Made by a program: the position numbers and the translations under genes
Notes under the pieces: generated by a model
Told to the model about the DNA's origin: nothing
What the model saw: the letters and a program-made list of their open reading frames with translations, nothing else
The model's database searches: none
In this document: in pieces, positions 5,301 to 27,952 of the stretch
Position numbering within the stretch: the first letter of the stretch is position 1
Layout of the letters: each line of letters begins with the position of its first letter
DNA from: a virus
Virus record (IMG/VR): IMGVR_UViG_3300013126_000189
Location: 1 to 27,952 of that record
Reading direction: 5' to 3' (one strand)
Length of the DNA: 27,952 nucleotides

Positions 5301-6651
5301 CAGCAGGAGTATCTTCTTTATTTGCATCTGCTTTCTTTGCAGCTACACCTTGCTCTTCTGCAAATTTGTTACACATTGGTATAGCATCTTTTATATCCTG
5401 GTCAATTACTTGTACCTTCATTGGTATCTGTGCATCAGGATGCGATGCATTATAAGCCGCTATTGCTGCCCATCTATGGTGTCCATCAATCACAAACCCA
5501 TCTCTACTCACATAAATTGGAGCCGTTATTGATGGGTGTTGAGGATTTTCTTCCAATGCTCCCATCATACCAACTACTTTAGCACCAACTAATTCCGATT
5601 GAGTTGCTTTTAATTTATCAGCAGGTACTTCAGTTTGTGTTACCGTAATACCTTTTTCGTCTAACATTTTTTTGAAAAGTGGTTCAGTATCTACTTCACC
5701 ATTCTTATCAACTGGCATATCTTCTGCAGGTGTACCAGGTTGTGGTTTGCCTTTAAATTGTGGCATTTCTTCTCTTGGTATTCCTAAGTTATCATCACAA
5801 TATAAGTTGGTACCAGGTACTGTTATTTGACACAAATTAATATCCGGTGCTTTTTCACCTTTAGCTTTTGCATCATCAACAATTTGTTTTACTTTAGTAA
5901 TATCAGTATTGAATTTGTTTAAATCTTCTTTATCAATTCCATCTGGTATATCAGATTCTCCACCAAATGTTTCAGGATCCGCTTGAGGAATTTCTTTTTG
6001 TACATCAACTGCTGGGATTGGATTAAACCCATCTTCTTTTTTAGGTTCTTCTTTTGGAGTTTCTTCTTCTTTATCTCCTGCTATTTTAGCAAGTGTTTCT
6101 TTTTCTTTATCCAAACGTGCTCCCATTGCAGGGTCTAACTTAGGGTCATACATTGGAGCAGCCTTTTGAATTGGGTCTTCCTTTTCGCCACCCGCTTCTT
6201 CACCACCTTTATCATCTTTTGGTTCTTGTGCACCCTGTGGTTGACCTTGTCCACCCAAATCTTTATTTAGTGAATCTCTTTCATCCGAACCATCTGCTGG
6301 TAATAAAGCCTCTGCTGCTTTACGTCCAGGATGGTCAGCTGGTAATCTTAACAAGTTACCAACAATACCTTCTGCATCTTCACCTTTTGTATTTTTATAT
6401 TTAATTTTTTTATTAAGAATTGGGTTTTTAAATGCTCCCTCATCTTCAACAACAGGTTCTGGAGTTTTTCCTTTTTCAGTAAGTAAGTTTTCTACTAAAT
6501 CGTTTTTGATATGAGATAATCCCATTTCAGAAAGTACAATACCCAACTCCTTTAAGTGGATTGGGTTCTTTGGGTTTGGCATACCATCTTCAACTCGGTA
6601 AGCCCATTCAGAAAGTATTTCGTTAATTAATTCAGATAAGGTCATATTCAT
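2383..6651 (-). CDS. Large multidomain 'polyvalent-like' protein (ParB-like, TraB/ChaN-like, possible nuclease)
   Basis: This 1422 aa protein consists of folded islands joined by Glu/Lys/Pro-rich linkers. Residues about 345-430 look like a ParB/Srx-type domain, with a VGAKVVGM helix followed by APIYVSRDGFVIDGHHRW. Residues about 475-705 resemble the TraB/ChaN/EreA superfamily: a GTKHGN turn, then VVFVGEGG, a NEARDENLIEKN helix and an IAGESHVELV strand. Residues about 880-1080 contain four cysteines and then S-A-D-M-F-I, with G-I-S-L-K-K-D about 25 residues later. That is the spacing of a PD-(D/E)XK nuclease core, though this part is weaker. L-F-E-A sites at about 778 and 1304 fit the T4 prohead-protease consensus. 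The ATG overlaps the nuclease stop (TAATG), so expression is coupled. Polyvalent proteins of this style are thought to be packaged and injected with phage DNA. The function here is inferred. Confidence 0.8.
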   Translation of the reverse strand: MNMTLSELINEILSEWAYRVEDGMPNPKNPIHLKELGIVLSEMGLSHIKNDLVENLLTEKGKTPEPVVEDEGAFKNPILNKKIKYKNTKGEDAEGIVGNLLRLPADHPGRKAAEALLPADGSDERDSLNKDLGGQGQPQGAQEPKDDKGGEEAGGEKEDPIQKAAPMYDPKLDPAMGARLDKEKETLAKIAGDKEEETPKEEPKKEDGFNPIPAVDVQKEIPQADPETFGGESDIPDGIDKEDLNKFNTDITKVKQIVDDAKAKGEKAPDINLCQITVPGTNLYCDDNLGIPREEMPQFKGKPQPGTPAEDMPVDKNGEVDTEPLFKKMLDEKGITVTQTEVPADKLKATQSELVGAKVVGMMGALEENPQHPSITAPIYVSRDGFVIDGHHRWAAIAAYNASHPDAQIPMKVQVIDQDIKDAIPMCNKFAEEQGVAAKKADANKEDTPAEAPKEPAQREPANDDPESKAQQFKGKSSGENIQTMEMEGGGFVYGTKHGNTAMVDDILDDVKSKIPKERWKDVVFVGEGGATNDAGELEFNDEMDYAAPKFKEIGASVDTWDGDDMDVHKPESKLYQKQKEKTGLSDSQIKAGNWASMIGQGEGTDTMSPNDYLDDEGKQFLQDAAKEAGFPPIENWDEPTEQDKDTLYRLSFPEDNGDTPTKINDIQVAFNEARDENLIEKNKELTAQGKIPITIAGESHVELVDKMSRKGEEKPEETPTEKLPEPEEPSTEDGGIVYSLGGGYYSDTPGGPAQYRVAEGIVEEVLIEGNESLAYLLFEAKVTKKTSRGKVVKLVTIDRSKQKKATAQAKQTVAASKKKTTQPQPSAEPPKEKESGRQELDSPKTEAEKKKMRTFTDKSVTSSLELTKSDVKAQEKQAKDEYEKAVKAWEKGGKKGPKPQFTKGLGAGSPESRAGESAVVKGCLTLRNEFVKCVSKSKDRNGCYQKAREAARKQLETFLGADSYLTTEWIDSAMNTLDLIHDEIGFENIEEIGWDNQQGRALVGSQGHGTSADMFIKAKPTKEFPNGKRIGISLKKDLKVFVFNGGWAKLEKVVTDRGFNLGEKSTMEYYNKRRYEELSKIRDFATENNAAFCKDFKHLRDNPTRISTKPQNVQSRVNDILKKTGKSDLSKVSCADFVKSIINEKPPTVDAMKVIGDLSKTSTNPELKEAYKKLRALDREMTDGIANDFMKPENQAVVKKLVRDETHISDILFADNPNLDELKVVFGTEPAISMKPEKLAELFGIQKLHEQYKNEKDPNKKAALKKKMEDIIDSKIVINNKKGVMSVAITISDKNGQESQLPLFEAKIRTRGFGNSPTFEMPQTVFGGLAYKYGHTRYNEWVDEDKEIVVSSAIKDIEDDFSEDLEFLDDKTSAEIAKRLKDLETIYPNSPSLKKFKKKYLNSNNKTVQTAKQTAATKKKK

Positions 6652-7253
6652 TAAAATTTGTGGTCAGCTTCTTCACAAATCATTTCCAACTCATACCATT
6701 TGAATTTTGGTTTTTGATTTAGAAATACAAAACATCTCCATTTATTTGATTTCTCAAAATAGATATGCTTTTGTAAGTGTGATGGAACTGCCGCTCCAGT
6801 TGATACTCTTTTAGCTGGAGTATCAAAGAATGATTTTATAATTATTGTAAGATTTTCACTATCATCCCATTTTCTTTCTTGCTCTTCCAACAATCTCCAT
6901 TCACCTCTATTAAGGTATTGGTCTTGCATAATACAATTTAAGTAAGAAAATGTTTGTTTTAGATTTTCCATATTATCAGAAAATGTTGCAGCTGGTGCTC
7001 CATGTCCTTTATCGTAAATGTTTGCTTTGTAATCTTCACCATCTGATGTTTTAATACCCTTTTCGGTATAGAAGTCCATCGAACCTCTATTCACATTTGT
7101 AGGTCTATTAGTGGAACGATACTTAATGATTAGTGGTTGTTCTAACGATTGAGAATAAAGTACATCAAATACTTCATTTTTAATTCTCACATCTTGTCCC
7201 AAAGAAACTAAGGAAACTAAGAGAAACGATAAAAGAAACATCAATTTTTTCAT
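6651..7253 (-). CDS. Secreted NUC1-family DNA/RNA non-specific endonuclease
   Basis: This 200 aa protein has a clear Sec signal peptide: KK near the N-terminus, hydrophobic residues 4-18, and likely cleavage near G19/Q20. The mature part carries the beta-beta-alpha-metal nuclease signature of the NUC1 (EndA/Serratia nuclease) family. D81-K-G-H84-G-A-P corresponds to DRGH-x-x-P with His84 as the general base. A helix with N115-R-G-x-W119 supplies the metal-binding Asn, followed by E123/E124. Cleavage of DNA and RNA outside the cytoplasm is therefore likely. It is short for the family (usually about 230-300 aa). A promoter motif lies 25 bases upstream, and its stop overlaps the start of the 1422 aa gene. 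The role could be degrading superinfecting or extracellular DNA, recycling host nucleotides, or being carried on the virion. Confidence 0.85.
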   Translation of the reverse strand: MKKLMFLLSFLLVSLVSLGQDVRIKNEVFDVLYSQSLEQPLIIKYRSTNRPTNVNRGSMDFYTEKGIKTSDGEDYKANIYDKGHGAPAATFSDNMENLKQTFSYLNCIMQDQYLNRGEWRLLEEQERKWDDSENLTIIIKSFFDTPAKRVSTGAAVPSHLQKHIYFEKSNKWRCFVFLNQKPKFKWYELEMICEEADHKF

Positions 7254-8579: not shown

Positions 8580-8817
8580 TCTTTTTTGCCGCCTGTGCTT
8601 TTTCTAATACGGATTTCTTTTTTTCCAATTTAGCTTCTTTCATCTGCTTCTTCATCATCTTATCATACCCAGCTGGAAACTTATTACTAACTTCTATTGG
8701 TCCATTTGGAAACCTCTTCAAATCATACTTCCAAATGGATTCAACTCCATCATCATCCTTATATGTTATTTCAAACTTTGTAGGTTTATCTATTGGTTTT
8801 TCCGGCCATCTACCCAT
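8551..8817 (-). CDS. Small conserved-looking phage protein upstream of the polymerase
   Basis: This is an 88 aa soluble protein. It has a beta-rich N-terminal half (KFEITYKDDDGVESIWKYD) and a strongly charged Lys/Ala/Glu helix in the second half, with no recognised domain. It overlaps the polymerase start by 29 bases and ends in TGA, the only non-TAA stop among the genes that end in this window. Translational coupling with the polymerase is likely, so it may be an accessory or regulatory protein for it. It has its own Bacteroidota-consensus promoter just after the tmRNA terminator. Confidence 0.72.
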   Translation of the reverse strand: MGRWPEKPIDKPTKFEITYKDDDGVESIWKYDLKRFPNGPIEVSNKFPAGYDKMMKKQMKEAKLEKKKSVLEKAQAAKKNDKDTGKYW

Positions 8818-8879: not shown

Positions 8880-8883
8880 GTAG

Positions 8884-9255
8884 TGGAGATGGGGAGATTC
8901 GAACTCCCGTCTTACGAAGTAACCATAATACCAGCTTTTCACACGTTTAGGATAAGGTTTAATCTTATTCACCTTCCAAAATAATTGGGGCCGTTTGGTT
9001 AGAACAGCGCTACCACCAACCGATTTATAGTTTCGGTAAACTTAGGTTTCACTTCTTTTTAAATTCCACGAGTGATGCGGAAGGGATTAGGCTGCTACAG
9101 CGTAATCAGCACCTACGAATGCCATAGCATCTTCGAAGGTCCAAGTAGATAATTCTACGTCATTTATTGTTTGATTCCGAGATTTAAGTGGTTTGAGAAC
9201 CTTCCCACTACGTGTGATACTATGTCTCGCATCGTAATCAATTCCAGTCATCCCC
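8884..9255 (-). ncRNA. ssrA: Transfer-messenger RNA (tmRNA, ssrA), phage-borne
   Basis: This is a complete one-piece tmRNA of about 372 nt. The 5' end GGGGATG pairs with CATCTCC at the 3' end to form a 7 bp acceptor stem with discriminator A. CCA is not encoded, so it must be added. The T arm is GGGAG-TTCGAAT-CTCCC. TCACACGT near the 5' end pairs with ACGTGTGA before the T arm as helix P2. The open tag frame ends G-A-D-Y-A-V-A-A then TAA (stop at 9089-9091), which resembles the YALAA-type degrons recognised by ClpXP. The resume codon is not certain; an 11-residue tag starting A-F-V-G is one possibility. tmRNA with SmpB rescues stalled ribosomes and tags the nascent chain. The gene sits between baseplate and polymerase operons and has its own promoter and terminator. 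Confidence 0.93.
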
Positions 9256-15464: not shown

Positions 15465-16403
15465 TTATGCTAATGCAAATTTATTCCTAGTACTATTATC
15501 CATTGTGTTGGTAACATTTGCAGTAACTTTTGAACCGTCCATATAAACTCCTATCTTTCCATTTGCCATATCGGCTCTTACACCTCTAAATTCTTGAATA
15601 AGTGCACTTAACATATTGTTATTAGTTGCTGCTATTGGAGAATCAGTAATTTTTCTAGATGCTACCGTATCAGATTTATTATCAAACATCTTAGTACCGG
15701 CTAATACCGTATCCTTATCATTGAGTTGAATAGCTCCTTCGGGCCCAAATAATGTTCTTTTTCCATACCCAGCTTTACTACCAAATGAAGCAATATCGTT
15801 TCCAAATTTCATTGCTTTTGCAGCCGCCGCAAATAATGCACCAACCATAGTCGCTGCTATAACGGCACCAATAATTGGTAATTTACCCTGACCACTAAAA
15901 ATACTAGCAACAGCACCTAGTAAACTTGCACCAGTTTTTCGTCTTTCTGCAATTTGCTCAGCAATAGTAACTCGCAATGATTGTAACTTATGTTTATATA
16001 TTAAAAAGGTTAAAGCGGCCAATGTTACAAAAAATCCAACCAATCCTGCGGCGTTTTGTGTAACATAAGCAATAACATTTGAAATTGCTCCAATTATATT
16101 TAGAATCCCCGCAACAACGTTTCCTAATAATTGAAACGCAGGTGTTAAATTACCACCTACCTTTTCAATGATACCTGCGATTGCGTTATTTATTTGTTCG
16201 GTAACTCCTGCAATTTTTTCATTTGCGGCTATAGAATCTGCTTTTTTCTTTAAATCTTCTTCACTTAAATCTCTAATATCAATTCCAGCATCAATTGCTT
16301 TTTGTGCGTTTTTTAATGCATCTCCACTTAAACTTTGCAATTTATCTCTTACACCTAACTCTTTAGTAATTTCTTCTACAGTTTTACCCGCTGCTTTTGC
16401 CAA
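15465..16403 (-). CDS. Tape measure protein, C-terminal part (after in-frame TAG)
   Basis: This 312 codon segment is in the same frame as the gene upstream and separated from it only by TAG at 16449-16451. The frame is open back to 16448, adding 15 residues (D-S-C-D-F-R-Q-Q...) before the TTG at 16403. The sequence has a helical region, then strongly hydrophobic stretches at about 95-150 and 165-200, typical of the membrane-active part of tape measure proteins. A GAIQLNDKDTVLAGT segment near the end is common at the C-terminus of myovirus tape measures. It has no plausible start site of its own: no promoter, no ribosome site, and a weak TTG inside a coherent helix. It is best read as the second part of one 798-residue protein made by TAG decoding, or as a broken gene. 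Confidence 0.75.
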   Translation of the reverse strand: MAKAAGKTVEEITKELGVRDKLQSLSGDALKNAQKAIDAGIDIRDLSEEDLKKKADSIAANEKIAGVTEQINNAIAGIIEKVGGNLTPAFQLLGNVVAGILNIIGAISNVIAYVTQNAAGLVGFFVTLAALTFLIYKHKLQSLRVTIAEQIAERRKTGASLLGAVASIFSGQGKLPIIGAVIAATMVGALFAAAAKAMKFGNDIASFGSKAGYGKRTLFGPEGAIQLNDKDTVLAGTKMFDNKSDTVASRKITDSPIAATNNNMLSALIQEFRGVRADMANGKIGVYMDGSKVTANVTNTMDNSTRNKFALA

Positions 16404-16448
16404 TGCTTCTTGAGTAAAATAGTCCTGTTGTCTAAAATCACAACTATC

Positions 16449-16451
16449 CTA
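16449..16451 (-). other. In-frame TAG codon inside the tape measure gene
   Basis: Reading on the minus strand gives GAT GCA ATT TAG GAT AGT and continues open for 327 more codons to a TAA. Both halves are in the same frame (both start coordinates leave remainder 2 on division by 3). The 21 genes whose ends are in the window stop at TAA (20) or TGA (1), never TAG. The codon may be suppressed, reassigned (for example to Gln), or a mutation or sequencing error. Confidence 0.85.
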
Positions 16452-17861
16452 AATTGCATCTAAAGTTGCTTCATTGGCATCTGCAATTTTTCCTTCATAC
16501 GCTAAAGCTCTTGCTCTACTAAGATTAAATTGACCACCAACCATAGTTGCCGCCGCCAATTCAGCTTCAATACCACTTTCAAAATCTAAAAGTTTTTCAG
16601 CAGTTTGGCTTAAATCTTTAAGACTAGTTCCTAACATTTTTGCTTTTACCGCCTGTTGAACAAAAAGCTGAACATTTCCTTTCATATGTTTAGAAAGAAC
16701 ACCCGCACTAGCTGCCATATCCTCAAACCCTTCTTTAGCAGAAACCCCAACATCCGCAAACATTTTTGCAGCATCTAATGTTGCACCAGCGGCAGCAGAT
16801 TCACTTAATTTACCAACCTGCTCAAACATAGAGGAAACTTTTGCAGAATCTTTAACTGCAATACCCATTTGAGTATTTAACAATCCCATTGAAACCTGTG
16901 TTGCTTCACTAAAGTGAAACATATCAGATTGGGCGTTTGCTAATTCTTCAATAACTTTATAAGCCTTTTCCGCATTTAACCCAAATTGACGATACCCCAT
17001 TGCAATATGATGTACATCATGGTCAATTTTTTCAGTCATTCTTGCAGTAAAACCTGTATTTTCTCTAAAAGCTTGAGCCTGTTTATCTAAATCCATAAAT
17101 ACATGCAATCCAGCTCCTAATATGGCTACCATTAAAATCAAAGGTCCCATAGCAATCCCCGCTGATGCTACTGCTTTAAATAATACCATTGCACCCTTTG
17201 CCGCACCTACTAAACTTGCAGGCAGACCGTGTGCAGCATGCTGAATTGCATGCATTAATGCATGTTGTCTTTTATCAATTTTTATTAATTGATGTTTTAT
17301 TTTTAAAAGTTTTAATTCTCTTTGAATTACTTCATCACTTGCTCCTTTTAGTTTTTGTATCAAATCATTTCTTTCTTCATCAAAAGTTTTTTCTTTAGAT
17401 TTATGCCCATTTACTTTTTCCGCTAATTCAATTACTTCAACTGCGAGAGAAGTCATTACACCTCTTCTTTCTTGTGCTTGTTTTAATGCATCTCCTTCTA
17501 AATTATTTTCTTCTTCTCTAGCGGCAATAACATCCGCTAATACCGATGCCATCAAATTATTACCTTTAACTCGATTGGTTAAAGTATCTAAAGCACCTTT
17601 ATCTGTTACTTTTAATTTTTTAGTGATATCAGCAATATCATCATATGTATCTTTCTGCTTTTGTAATTTTTGAATTTTAGCCGAAAGTTGAGCAGATTCT
17701 TCATCACCTTTTTTAATTAACTCTTCGAGACGCTTTTTTTCCATATGACGAGCGTTAGCAGCTTTCTCTACATTTATAGAAATCTGCTTTTCTACTCGTT
17801 CTTTTTCTTTTAAGAGACTATTGAGTTCTTTTTGTTCAGCTGGTGTTAATTTTTCTGCCAT
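16449..17861 (-). CDS. Tape measure protein, N-terminal part
   Basis: This 470 aa segment is the beginning of the tail-length-determining protein. Residues about 5-75 are a Lys/Glu coiled coil. About 95-210 are further charged helices. About 215-255 form a hydrophobic block (GAAKGAMVLFKAVASAGIAM, ILMVAILGAGLHVF). About 265-470 are Ala/Met-rich helices with FRENTGFTARM, LLNTQMGIAVKD and a terminal GGQFNLSRARALAYEGK segment that recurs in tape measures of contractile-tailed phages. Position agrees: after the chaperone pair and before the baseplate genes. The frame meets TAG at 16449, while the downstream 327 codons supply the missing C-terminal half, so 470 aa alone would be a truncated ruler. 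The start ATG follows the 79 aa gene by 9 bases. Confidence 0.85.
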   Translation of the reverse strand: MAEKLTPAEQKELNSLLKEKERVEKQISINVEKAANARHMEKKRLEELIKKGDEESAQLSAKIQKLQKQKDTYDDIADITKKLKVTDKGALDTLTNRVKGNNLMASVLADVIAAREEENNLEGDALKQAQERRGVMTSLAVEVIELAEKVNGHKSKEKTFDEERNDLIQKLKGASDEVIQRELKLLKIKHQLIKIDKRQHALMHAIQHAAHGLPASLVGAAKGAMVLFKAVASAGIAMGPLILMVAILGAGLHVFMDLDKQAQAFRENTGFTARMTEKIDHDVHHIAMGYRQFGLNAEKAYKVIEELANAQSDMFHFSEATQVSMGLLNTQMGIAVKDSAKVSSMFEQVGKLSESAAAGATLDAAKMFADVGVSAKEGFEDMAASAGVLSKHMKGNVQLFVQQAVKAKMLGTSLKDLSQTAEKLLDFESGIEAELAAATMVGGQFNLSRARALAYEGKIADANEATLDAI

Positions 17862-18110: not shown

Positions 18111-18130
18111 AATAGGTATAATTTAACAGT

Positions 18131-18149: not shown

Positions 18150-18183
18150 AAAAAAGTTAGGATTATCTTCTAACCCTAACTTT
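18150..18183 (-). terminator. Rho-independent terminator after the chaperone pair
   Basis: AAAGTTAGG (18183-18175) pairs with CCTAACTTT (18161-18153) around a 13-base loop, followed by a T-rich tail. The TAA stop of the frameshift extension (18165-18163) lies inside the loop. Confidence 0.75.
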
Positions 18184-18384
18184 ACTAGATTTATTAACTT
18201 TTTCTATTTCATCATTTTCTTTTTTCTTTGCGTCTGCTAGCTTATTATAATAAAATAATCTCAATCTTGTTGGCATATGATACAACTCGGTTACACTAAA
18301 CCCATTTCCATATTGAACCATATCAAATATTTGGGAGTGTAATTGTATAGAATGATTAGCTGCTAGGCCAAAAAAAGCCAACAC
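18163..18384 (-). CDS. Tail-assembly chaperone extension (T part, frameshift-expressed)
   Basis: This reading frame overlaps the end of the upstream chaperone and lies in the frame reached by a +1 or -2 shift at the 7-T run. Its own first possible start is a GTG at 18384, inside the upstream gene and without a ribosome site. The useful part begins after the slip (GLAANHSIQLHSQ) and contains GYGN-like and MPTRLRLFYYNKLADAKKKE segments, ending in a basic helix. The size and position match the T domain of G/GT chaperones, which sits between tail tube and tape measure genes and recruits tail tube subunits to the tape measure. In T4 terms the counterpart would be gp51. Independent initiation is possible but less likely. 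Confidence 0.68.
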   Translation of the reverse strand: MLAFFGLAANHSIQLHSQIFDMVQYGNGFSVTELYHMPTRLRLFYYNKLADAKKKENDEIEKVNKSSKVRVRR

Positions 18385-19111
18385 CTAATGTAATAGGCGC
18401 CTCCTCCACCTCACCATCTTCATGAGTATATTTAATAGTCATATCCATATCTGGAGATATTTGTTTAACATATTCTCTCAAAGCTCTACTATCCAATGCA
18501 CGCATTCCATTTATGAATTTATTAATATGTCCAATATCAGAAATACCGTCCACTGCTTTAATCATATATCTTAAACGTGTGGTAATATCATAAGAAGTCT
18601 CTTTATTTAATTTTTCAAGTGCTGCAATTTCTTTTTCTATTTCTCTTTCATCACCATGTGTAAGGAATTTAAAAGTAATCTTATTTTTTCCTAATGGTGT
18701 TACGAATTCAAATTCATTTTTATTATTAAATAAAGAATAATCTATATCTTTTGTCTTTACCTGTGTTAAATCTGCGGTAACAGTAATAGTTTCACTTTTC
18801 TTAGTTGAATAAAAATTAAATTCATATTCTGGTCCATAACCCAATACTCTTGTAGCTAAAATAATTGCATTTTTATCACCAATGATAATATCATTTATAT
18901 CTATTTTATCAACTATAATAGATTCAAATAATTTATCTAACACAACCCCTTTCTTAATAAGGTTCGTAGAAGAAAGAATATCTTCTTCTTTTGCAGTCAT
19001 TAATTTTATTGTAATTCTTCCAGATGATAGTGGATGTTCTTTTGGATACACTTTTCCTTCTGATGGTAAATCCAACACTTCCGTTGGAAAATCGTATTTT
19101 TGTTCTTGCAT
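18356..19111 (-). CDS. Tail/baseplate assembly chaperone, T4 gp26-like (G part)
   Basis: This is a 251 aa protein starting MQEQKYDFPTEVLDLPSEGK. The conserved core is GRITIKLMTAKEEDILSSTN with LIKKGVVLDKLFESIIVD, the pattern of the T4 'base plate protein' family (gp26-like) found in T4-type phages. Position between tail tube and tape measure matches the tail-assembly chaperone slot of long-tailed phages. I chose the ATG at 19111 because the longer frame (to 19225) would run through the tail tube terminator and the promoter motif, and gives an implausible hydrophobic leader. The gene ends 14 bases after a run of seven T, where a shift gives the T extension. Confidence 0.8.
   Translation of the reverse strand: MQEQKYDFPTEVLDLPSEGKVYPKEHPLSSGRITIKLMTAKEEDILSSTNLIKKGVVLDKLFESIIVDKIDINDIIIGDKNAIILATRVLGYGPEYEFNFYSTKKSETITVTADLTQVKTKDIDYSLFNNKNEFEFVTPLGKNKITFKFLTHGDEREIEKEIAALEKLNKETSYDITTRLRYMIKAVDGISDIGHINKFINGMRALDSRALREYVKQISPDMDMTIKYTHEDGEVEEAPITLGVGFFWPSS
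18370..18376 (-). other. Candidate programmed frameshift site (7-T run)
   Basis: The coding strand reads GGC TTT TTT TGG in the chaperone frame. Slipping +1 (or -2) on the T run gives GGC CTA GCA GCT and the 70-codon extension. The zero frame stops at TAA 18358-18356, shortly after the run. Confidence 0.6.
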
Positions 19112-19131
19112 AACGTTATTGTTTTTGTATA

Positions 19132-19140
19132 TATAAATAC
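19132..19140 (-). promoter_or_regulatory. Late-type promoter motif before the chaperone gene
   Basis: GTATTTATA on the coding strand lies 21 bases upstream of the ATG at 19111 and follows the tail tube terminator. It is a one-base variant of the window's ATATTTATA motif. Confidence 0.45.
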
Positions 19141-19163
19141 ATAAAATCAAAAAAATTGAAAAT

Positions 19164-19190
19164 AAAAAAGGGATACCTTTTGAGTATCCC
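19164..19190 (-). terminator. Rho-independent terminator after the tail tube gene
   Basis: GGGATAC (19190-19184) pairs with GTATCCC (19176-19170) around a 7-base loop, followed by TTTTTT. It begins 25 bases after the tube stop codon. Confidence 0.85.
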
Positions 19191-19214
19191 CTTCTTAATA
19201 TTGTTTTTCTTAGA

Positions 19215-19712
19215 TTAGAATTCAAGAACTGCGTAATCGTAAGTAAGTGTTAAAGTAATAGTTGTAGGTTCATTAGTTGTGTTGTATGCCAAATCTCCAA
19301 AGTTTGCTTGAGAGATAAATGCTCCTTTTAATGTCCATTGTTCAACAACATCACCAACAGGTCCTAACATTTTAAAATTAATATCTTTCTTATACATTTC
19401 TCCGTATCCATCTCTACCTGTAATAGATTCATGCGAAAGACGAATCCATTCCATTACCGCTTGTGCTGCTGAAGGAACGATTGGGTCATAGAGTGTGATT
19501 TCTATATCCTGCCACTCACCTTTACCTTTCAACTTTCTATATACGTTGATGTGGTCTAATTTTACAGTCTCAAACTGAATGTTTGGTCTGTTAGCCGCAC
19601 TAACTACAAATGAAGGAATTGCTATTTCACCGAATTCCATGATATAGCGGTTCTTCATTTTAGGTTCGAAGTTCGTATAGAACATCTTATCGAAGGATAG
19701 TATCTCTGCCAT
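19215..19712 (-). CDS. Tail tube protein (T4 gp19-like)
   Basis: This is a 165 aa major tail tube subunit. The N-terminus MAEILSFDKMFYTNFEPKMK is followed by NRYIMEFGEIAIPSFVVSAA, and there is a central GEWQDIEITLYDPI strand pair and a C-terminal TTITLTLTYDYAVLEF. This is the gp19 tube fold pattern, and the length matches T4 gp19 (about 163 aa). It polymerises inside the contractile sheath and forms the DNA channel. It lies directly after the sheath gene, as in T4 (18-19), with a 51-base gap that carries a promoter motif, so it can be made in greater amount than its neighbours. A terminator follows. Confidence 0.92.
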   Translation of the reverse strand: MAEILSFDKMFYTNFEPKMKNRYIMEFGEIAIPSFVVSAANRPNIQFETVKLDHINVYRKLKGKGEWQDIEITLYDPIVPSAAQAVMEWIRLSHESITGRDGYGEMYKKDINFKMLGPVGDVVEQWTLKGAFISQANFGDLAYNTTNEPTTITLTLTYDYAVLEF

Positions 19713-26500: not shown

Positions 26501-27952
26501 GGTTCCATTACTGCCACCGCCACCTTGTCCGTTTTGAATACCCAAATACCAAATACGAGAGTTGCCATTTGGATTAACAAAATAATTTGTTGGGTCATTT
26601 GAATCTCTAAATATCGTACCATACACCTCACCAGCTGCGTACATTGTACCACCTGTGTAAATACTTTGATTTGTATTAAATCCAGGATAAGAGTTTGGAA
26701 CAATTTCACAAAATGTTGATGAACCAGGATTACCAGTACCACCATTTGTTAATGTCCATCCAGATGAATGGTAATTATCAGTAATTGCAATATATAAAGT
26801 ACCACTATTTGTACAATAAATTTGTAAATAATGAGTATCATAAGTTCCAGTACCTCTAATACGAATGTTGTTTACAACACCACCCGCATTATACCAAGAT
26901 TTACCTAATAATGTAAGAGTTGATGCACCCGCTGAACCAAAGTGTACACCTGCATTAAATTTTTGATGATGGTGTAAACTACTATTGTAATCCCAAGTAT
27001 GGAATGTAGCCATTGCTCTATTACCAGGATTTGTAGCAATTGTGTACCAGTTCCCTGCAGTTACCGAAATAGTTAAAGTATCTATTAAAGCCCATCCTCT
27101 TATATTTAGATAATTTAATACTGATGTAGATGCGGGGTCTAAATAATAGTTAGTATCGTTTCTATCTCTGAATATAGGTGCATCAATTTGTCCATTTGTA
27201 TAAATTAATGCTCTTTCAGGATCGCCCGTTGAACCAAATCCAAAATAATCATTTGTATCATTATCATCTGATGCTGCAAACCACATTCTCGCAGTATTAG
27301 ATGATTCGTAATGTCTAATATATCCAGGATCGTTTGTTTGTGCTGCAAAATTTATATATGAGTTATTACCACTTTTTTGAATTGTAATATCACCACCATA
27401 CACATTTAAATCACCACCGATTAAAAGGTCACCATTATTTTGGTCAAATCTATGTTTTACATATGCAGTTCTATTACCACTTTGTCTTGATGGTACAGTA
27501 AATCCACCACCAATTGCTCCAGTTGAACCTTCAGATGTTATTAAGAAATAATTTAAAGGATTATCATGATATAATCCCCATCCAGTATATGGTTCATAAT
27601 CCACAAAGATACCTGTCCAACCTTCTCCGGTCACTTGCTGCATACCAAACGCAGCTCCTGCTGATGATGTTCCAGATGAATTTAATAGTAAACCAGGTTT
27701 ATTATAGGTTACGGCATTTACCGAACCTTGCATATTAATTGATGTACCTGTGCTTGATAAATCCGCATAATATGTTGTAGCCGAATCATAATAAATTGGA
27801 GAAATAATAGAACCATATACTTCTAATTGAGCATTACCTCTAATTACCATATTACGGTCACCACTTAATCCACCATCTCTAAATACAATATCTTCACCAC
27901 CAGATGTTGCAATAATTAAATGATTATCATCAGTATCCGTAGCTTGTAAGTA
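23561..27952 (-). CDS. Long tail fibre/tip protein with S74 chaperone domain (5' end missing)
   Basis: The frame is open to the window edge, so 1463 residues are visible and the N-terminus lies outside. The ATG at 27850 is internal: upstream codons continue the same beta pattern (HLIIATSGGEDIVFRDGG). The shaft contains at least seven copies of a short unit of the form (I/Y)(F/Y)(Y/R)D-x-N-x-T-x-YY-x-D-P, common in phage fibre shafts. Regions rich in Gly, Tyr, Asn and Trp suggest a carbohydrate-binding beta-structured fibre. A block of about 120 codons is duplicated nearly exactly. The last about 120 residues are a Peptidase_S74-type intramolecular chaperone: YSDLRAKN with the Ser-Asp pair, GVLAQQVQSIYPELV, then a coiled coil (NEINFIKAQNEYLLERIENL). 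It probably folds the trimer and is then cut off. Confidence 0.9.
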   Translation of the reverse strand, partial: YLQATDTDDNHLIIATSGGEDIVFRDGGLSGDRNMVIRGNAQLEVYGSIISPIYYDSATTYYADLSSTGTSINMQGSVNAVTYNKPGLLLNSSGTSSAGAAFGMQQVTGEGWTGIFVDYEPYTGWGLYHDNPLNYFLITSEGSTGAIGGGFTVPSRQSGNRTAYVKHRFDQNNGDLLIGGDLNVYGGDITIQKSGNNSYINFAAQTNDPGYIRHYESSNTARMWFAASDDNDTNDYFGFGSTGDPERALIYTNGQIDAPIFRDRNDTNYYLDPASTSVLNYLNIRGWALIDTLTISVTAGNWYTIATNPGNRAMATFHTWDYNSSLHHHQKFNAGVHFGSAGASTLTLLGKSWYNAGGVVNNIRIRGTGTYDTHYLQIYCTNSGTLYIAITDNYHSSGWTLTNGGTGNPGSSTFCEIVPNSYPGFNTNQSIYTGGTMYAAGEVYGTIFRDSNDPTNYFVNPNGNSRIWYLGIQNGQGGGGSNGTVGLKFGGLGDYPSLELGIIDNYDGMIRSYGNDIRYYSGHWRSNGNTSSENHSHYWYTSRAGSTDWNTVKMSLNHDARLYVLGEVWSGSGNSRNGGVAFIANDGAILVRASGDNFHKIWYYDGISFGTNQAHGIFRFWGETNSQRNNSTGGNSLRFSIDSTNGVAISYGDMRSTIFYNYSSTGWYVDPDGTSRLNRIDFGNASYYITAGSWGMRNVTPYGYIEFGPANSSHAHIYTDRSNFYFNTTELYALGYRMALYNIWVGNLYFGTGGDMYATIYRDANDGGYYVDPTDSGNAGRFRGGTLHGPNPSWGAYLYVGSNGRVDSWASVVTTNGNLHLDPRNGYGTYLNWYAGGPVYVENEIQATIFYDRNNTGYYFGNGQGDTRVNWLGSNNHYIYPGYMLYSDPGGWTGEYYKIQWHSSHVYYQTLANGYHILRYGGDGLESHQFARDGNYWNRYMGWMSNYMNQNVRTDAGPTFAEVYVNGWFRNNSNGTGLYNQNRGMHWYTNNGYWKSAGGGYGYGGIVLYNNYESDLRGYAGYWDGSGFGMLNNSGNWQIRIEYGNAHMELYRITYGNDFRANIYYDRDNTGYYFGSGQGDTRVNWLGSNNHYIYPGYMLYSDPGGWTGEYYKIQWHSSHVYYQTVANGYHIFRYGGDGLESHYMARDGNYWNRYMGWMSNYMNQNVRTDSGPTFSEVYCNGWFRNQGGGGLYQQSYGGHFRTNFSSSYTPWETFGYYKSGWGGQNFNDPSGYHNHLMFESGNGGVYVQNGNGWSWYYSRPNNCFTAPGSTTYGWMRFNIEGPLRVRQFINVNWNADGNIDALNGFGVYWRSSGGYHWVGQTDGYNNIYMINGGGSFGGVVLYPYYYGWVGYSDLRAKNITGYISDVLDKIDTLTPIYYTYKFDTIKENPEEDTRIKHGVLAQQVQSIYPELVKEDELSGLLTLSMESLIPTLIQGVKELRNEINFIKAQNEYLLERIENLENQ
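24405..24774 (-). repeat. Internal direct repeat of the tail fibre, copy 2 (C-terminal copy)
   Basis: About 370 bases match the segment 642 bases (214 codons) to the right with few differences. The matched protein runs from NTGYYFGSGQGDTRVNW to NQNVRTDSGPTFSEVY. Long stretches are identical at DNA level (for example around 24451-24510), so the duplication is fairly recent or is kept uniform by recombination. Confidence 0.9.
25047..25416 (-). repeat. Internal direct repeat of the tail fibre, copy 1 (N-terminal copy)
   Basis: This is the partner of 24405-24774, in the same orientation and frame. Differences include L/V and L/F in the YQTLANGYHILRY part and HQF/HYM before ARDGNYW. The 270 bases or so between the copies are unrelated spacer sequence. 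Confidence 0.9.

Follow-up and report, generated by a model that had tools for sequence, protein, structure and literature searches.

How is a single in-frame TAG in the middle of an otherwise continuous phage tail gene to be read? The stretch of DNA in which it occurs (hereafter, the window) is the entire virus record of 27,952 bases, which is probably a fragment, its completeness not being given; its source is a contractile-tailed phage. The tail sheath gene, the tail tube gene and a baseplate-hub or chaperone-type gene, all identified by PHROG matches, are followed directly by the interrupted gene. The same gene order is found in Flavobacterium phage immuto, in which the homologue is annotated as a tail tape measure protein, and profile comparison showed homology both to this immuto protein and to its positional counterpart in Microcystis phage Mel-JY01. 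The gene thus combines a position after a tail-chaperone gene with homology to an annotated tape measure. We also scanned bacterial genomes with the sheath protein and found no relative there.

The tape-measure gene occupies positions 15465-17861 of the minus strand. Read from 17861 to 15465, the frame consists of 470 amino acids (the N-terminal part, 16452-17861), a TAG at codon 471 (16449-16451) and a further 327 amino acids closed by TAA (the C-terminal part, 15465-16448), and reading through the TAG gives 798 residues. A preliminary description of this sequence had claimed that the two halves lie in exactly the same frame, that both belong to a tape measure and that the second half has no start site of its own, and our analysis agrees on all three points. 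Across the TAG, both parts align without gaps to homologues that are single, uninterrupted proteins of about 790-800 amino acids, with 44-60% identity to the closer homologues in the N-terminal part and 44-57% in the C-terminal part. The start-like codons in frame after the TAG are TTG at 16403, 16 codons on, and TTG at 16340, and the first in-frame ATG, at 15848, lies within conserved sequence; no recognisable ribosome site was found at any of the three. It is therefore very improbable that the gene is truly split, with the 470-residue product working alone or the C-terminal part being made separately by re-initiation: both parts are intact, as this would require, but the nearest start is a TTG that lacks a ribosome site, and all relatives make one protein. 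Substitutions in the C-terminal part are least frequent at codon position 2 and most frequent at position 3, so that it resembles coding sequence under constraint. Given that the C-terminal part contains no other stop and no frameshift, we rejected a decaying pseudogene, and translational bypassing of the kind known from T4 gene 60 was rejected as well, the alignment showing no extra segment where the TAG stands.

To place the TAG among its relatives, we used homologues from IMG/VR scans, which comprised 154 loci with 87 distinct sequences and 62,358 codons. No in-frame stop occurred in any of these tape-measure genes, and none occurred in eight structural genes of the relatives (189,154 aligned residues in 502 gene-by-locus pairs). 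One such codon in the window is therefore uncommon, with the qualification that the window was picked because it shows an in-frame stop. The same structural genes showed a few apparent frameshifts, which affect the tape-measure gene of L023 and the sheath genes of L023 and L015 (L023, 3815-5981; L015, 2-1551) and are likely assembly errors. In the alignment of homologous tape measures that the preliminary description had called for, almost every homologue has CAA, GAA or GAG at column 471, the most distant ones carrying Asn or Gly. Since the relatives mostly have Gln or Glu at this column, the TAG is one substitution away from CAG or GAG. Three codons downstream, codon 474 encodes Cys in the window versus a near-invariant Gly in the homologues. 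This could, weakly, fit a locally poor consensus; four of the 107 near-invariant columns differ in the window, however, so that one of them near the TAG is not significant.

The quality of the consensus can also be judged from a contig of the same species, L024, which is 99.79% identical to the window over 9,839 bases and ends at window position 18114, just before the tape-measure gene. In the tail module, about 5.4 kb of shared sequence contains a single difference, an indication that the consensus is good in this part, and the others lie in the tail fibre. Protein scans and an exact-flank scan of contigs found no near-identical copies of the tape-measure gene itself. In the large S74 tail-fibre gene, 16 of the 21 differences from L024 cluster within about 120 bases (26889-27008), a pattern suggesting recombination or local diversification.

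If the TAG were read as an amino acid, likely Gln, then an amber-suppressor tRNA would have to come from the host or from a part of the phage genome that lies beyond the fragment, and the case would be one of partial suppression or of the start of a code change. The conserved, in-frame state of both gene parts, the frequency of Gln at column 471 and the precedent of suppression and code 15 in other phages are in line with this reading, which we nevertheless consider unlikely, on account of how TAG is used in the window and in its relatives. As the preliminary description had noted, the other 21 complete genes of the window all end in TAA or TGA (20 in TAA and one in TGA). However, TAG is a real terminator in relatives with the same gene order, where it ends the tape-measure gene (L026 and L031), the sheath gene (L007 and L008) and, at 59 loci, the chaperone gene. 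Outside the chaperone gene it ends about 3% of the relatives' genes, so that none would be expected in 20 window genes and its absence is uninformative. The chaperone gene ends in TAA in the window, as opposed to TAG in the 59 relatives; this favours suppression in that it would fit avoidance of TAG, but it is one event. When TAG was read as sense across the window, only the tape-measure gene gained from it, and no second in-frame TAG was found within a window gene, as had also been claimed. The remaining TAGs either precede gene starts or belong to frames overlapping real genes; those at 8606 and 7280, for example, come before the start of the gene in question, and the relatives begin at the same start. 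Phages of code 15 carry many in-frame TAGs, particularly in late genes, and do not use TAG as a terminator in their lineage, whereas here there is one such codon in 28 kb of mostly late genes, and the relatives end genes in TAG, though the window has none. A search for a suppressor tRNA(CUA), which had been proposed for the rest of the genome, covered the window and a 188-kb relative and yielded no candidate: the window contains no tRNA at all, and none of the 22 tRNAs of the relative was read as an amber suppressor, one anticodon among them being unreadable. We also considered recoding in the nearest huge phage, LR756508, and rejected it, as the stretch that we read has TAG stops and its genes are intact by the standard code. 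More doubtful still is the specific proposal of a lineage that gained an amber suppressor only recently and now tolerates, for the first time, an in-frame TAG in an essential gene; this phage would then have been caught as a code change begins.

Programmed read-through of a leaky TAG, giving two tape-measure lengths, is another reading to which we attach very little weight. A local hairpin on the minus strand (16415-16451) includes the TAG, the 101-nt fold around it has an energy of -24 kcal/mol (z about -2.8 to -3.2), and the codon is flanked by an 8-bp inverted repeat, TGCCAATG/CATTGGCA. Taken alone, this structure is suggestive. In a sliding fold scan of the same strand, however, 25 of 1,116 segments had z below -3 while the TAG site had z of -2.8; given that about 2% of segments fold better by this measure, the hairpin is within the background, and we rejected it as a signal. 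In L011, the corresponding stretch does not fold more stably than shuffled versions of itself. Read-through of this kind is recognised by conservation of the stop codon together with a stimulating structure, but the codon is missing from all 87 distinct homologues, and a second, shorter tape measure would have no evident use.

We therefore consider it highly probable that the TAG is an isolated one-base change to amber, and that the tape-measure gene is otherwise intact and read by the standard code. Codon 471 is one substitution from CAG or GAG, the 87 homologues have no stops and TAG terminates genes in relatives; in addition, the C-terminal part is undamaged and evolves like coding sequence, and there is no second in-frame TAG. 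The amber change is either a real mutant allele, picked up by the assembly, or a consensus error, that is, a wrong base. We infer a recent single event; a mutant allele would be recent, since the gene has gathered no further damage. Translation would end at residue 470 and the last 327 residues would be lost, so that defective tails are to be expected in a phage with this TAG if the codon is not suppressed. Three considerations speak against a lone amber change: consensus substitution errors are rare in assembled contigs, a lethal allele should not become the population consensus unless it is tolerated, and the portion of the window shared with L024 agrees closely. Among the three readings offered by the preliminary description, then, the single mutation is best supported; reassignment is contradicted by the use of TAG as a stop in relatives, by the single occurrence of in-frame TAG in the window's genes and by the absence of stops from the homologues, and programmed read-through has gained no positive support. 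More generally, one in-frame stop in a metagenomic contig does not amount to evidence of recoding when the relatives encode an amino acid at that position and continue to terminate genes with the same codon. Should the TAG prove to be fixed and suppressed, it would represent a useful early stage of stop-codon capture.

The window has several other features. On the minus strand, the chaperone-type gene (18356-19225) overlaps the next frame (18163-18384) at a seven-T run, CTTTTTTTGG. In every one of the 75 distinct loci, the downstream frame is offset in the same direction (+1, or, as in phage Mu, -2), in most cases at a T6-T7 run, which makes it likely that a T4-like tail module here has a conserved programmed frameshift. 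According to a review (PMC5009743), the related G-T frameshift shows wide conservation among long-tailed phages, T4 being an exception. A tmRNA gene is also found at 8883-9255 of the minus strand (Rfam, 75.5 bits), with the predicted tag DVELSTWTFEDAMAFVGADYAVAA. ARAGORN detected tmRNAs in the relatives L011, L016, L018, L029, L033, L070 and L075 as well; the tags of L011 and L075 resemble that of the window. Phage tmRNAs are known (PMC9004378). The gene at 6651-7253, also on the minus strand, encodes a predicted DNA/RNA non-specific endonuclease (PF01223) with a signal-like N-terminus, which shows >80% identity to its counterparts in L011 and L016.

Finally, we compared the locus with known systems. 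The tape measure of immuto (vB_FspM_immuto, QQO92151.1; 1006 amino acids) and the hypothetical protein of Mel-JY01 (WWT39328.1; 1348 amino acids) occupy the same place after the sheath, tube and chaperone genes and show detectable homology to the window gene over its central part, but they are uninterrupted and longer. Phage phAss-1 is reported to have TAG in 41 ORFs. TAG-recoded phages (code 15, crAss-like, phAss-1) resemble the window in carrying in-frame TAG where Gln is common; they differ from it in having many TAGs and often a suppressor tRNA, whereas the window has one TAG, no such tRNA was found, and its relatives terminate genes with TAG. Nonsense mutants in structural genes of phages, such as the classical amber mutants of T4, were obtained on suppressor hosts, whereas the TAG of the window is known from the contig alone. 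Like the window, these mutants have a single amber codon in a late gene that is otherwise intact.
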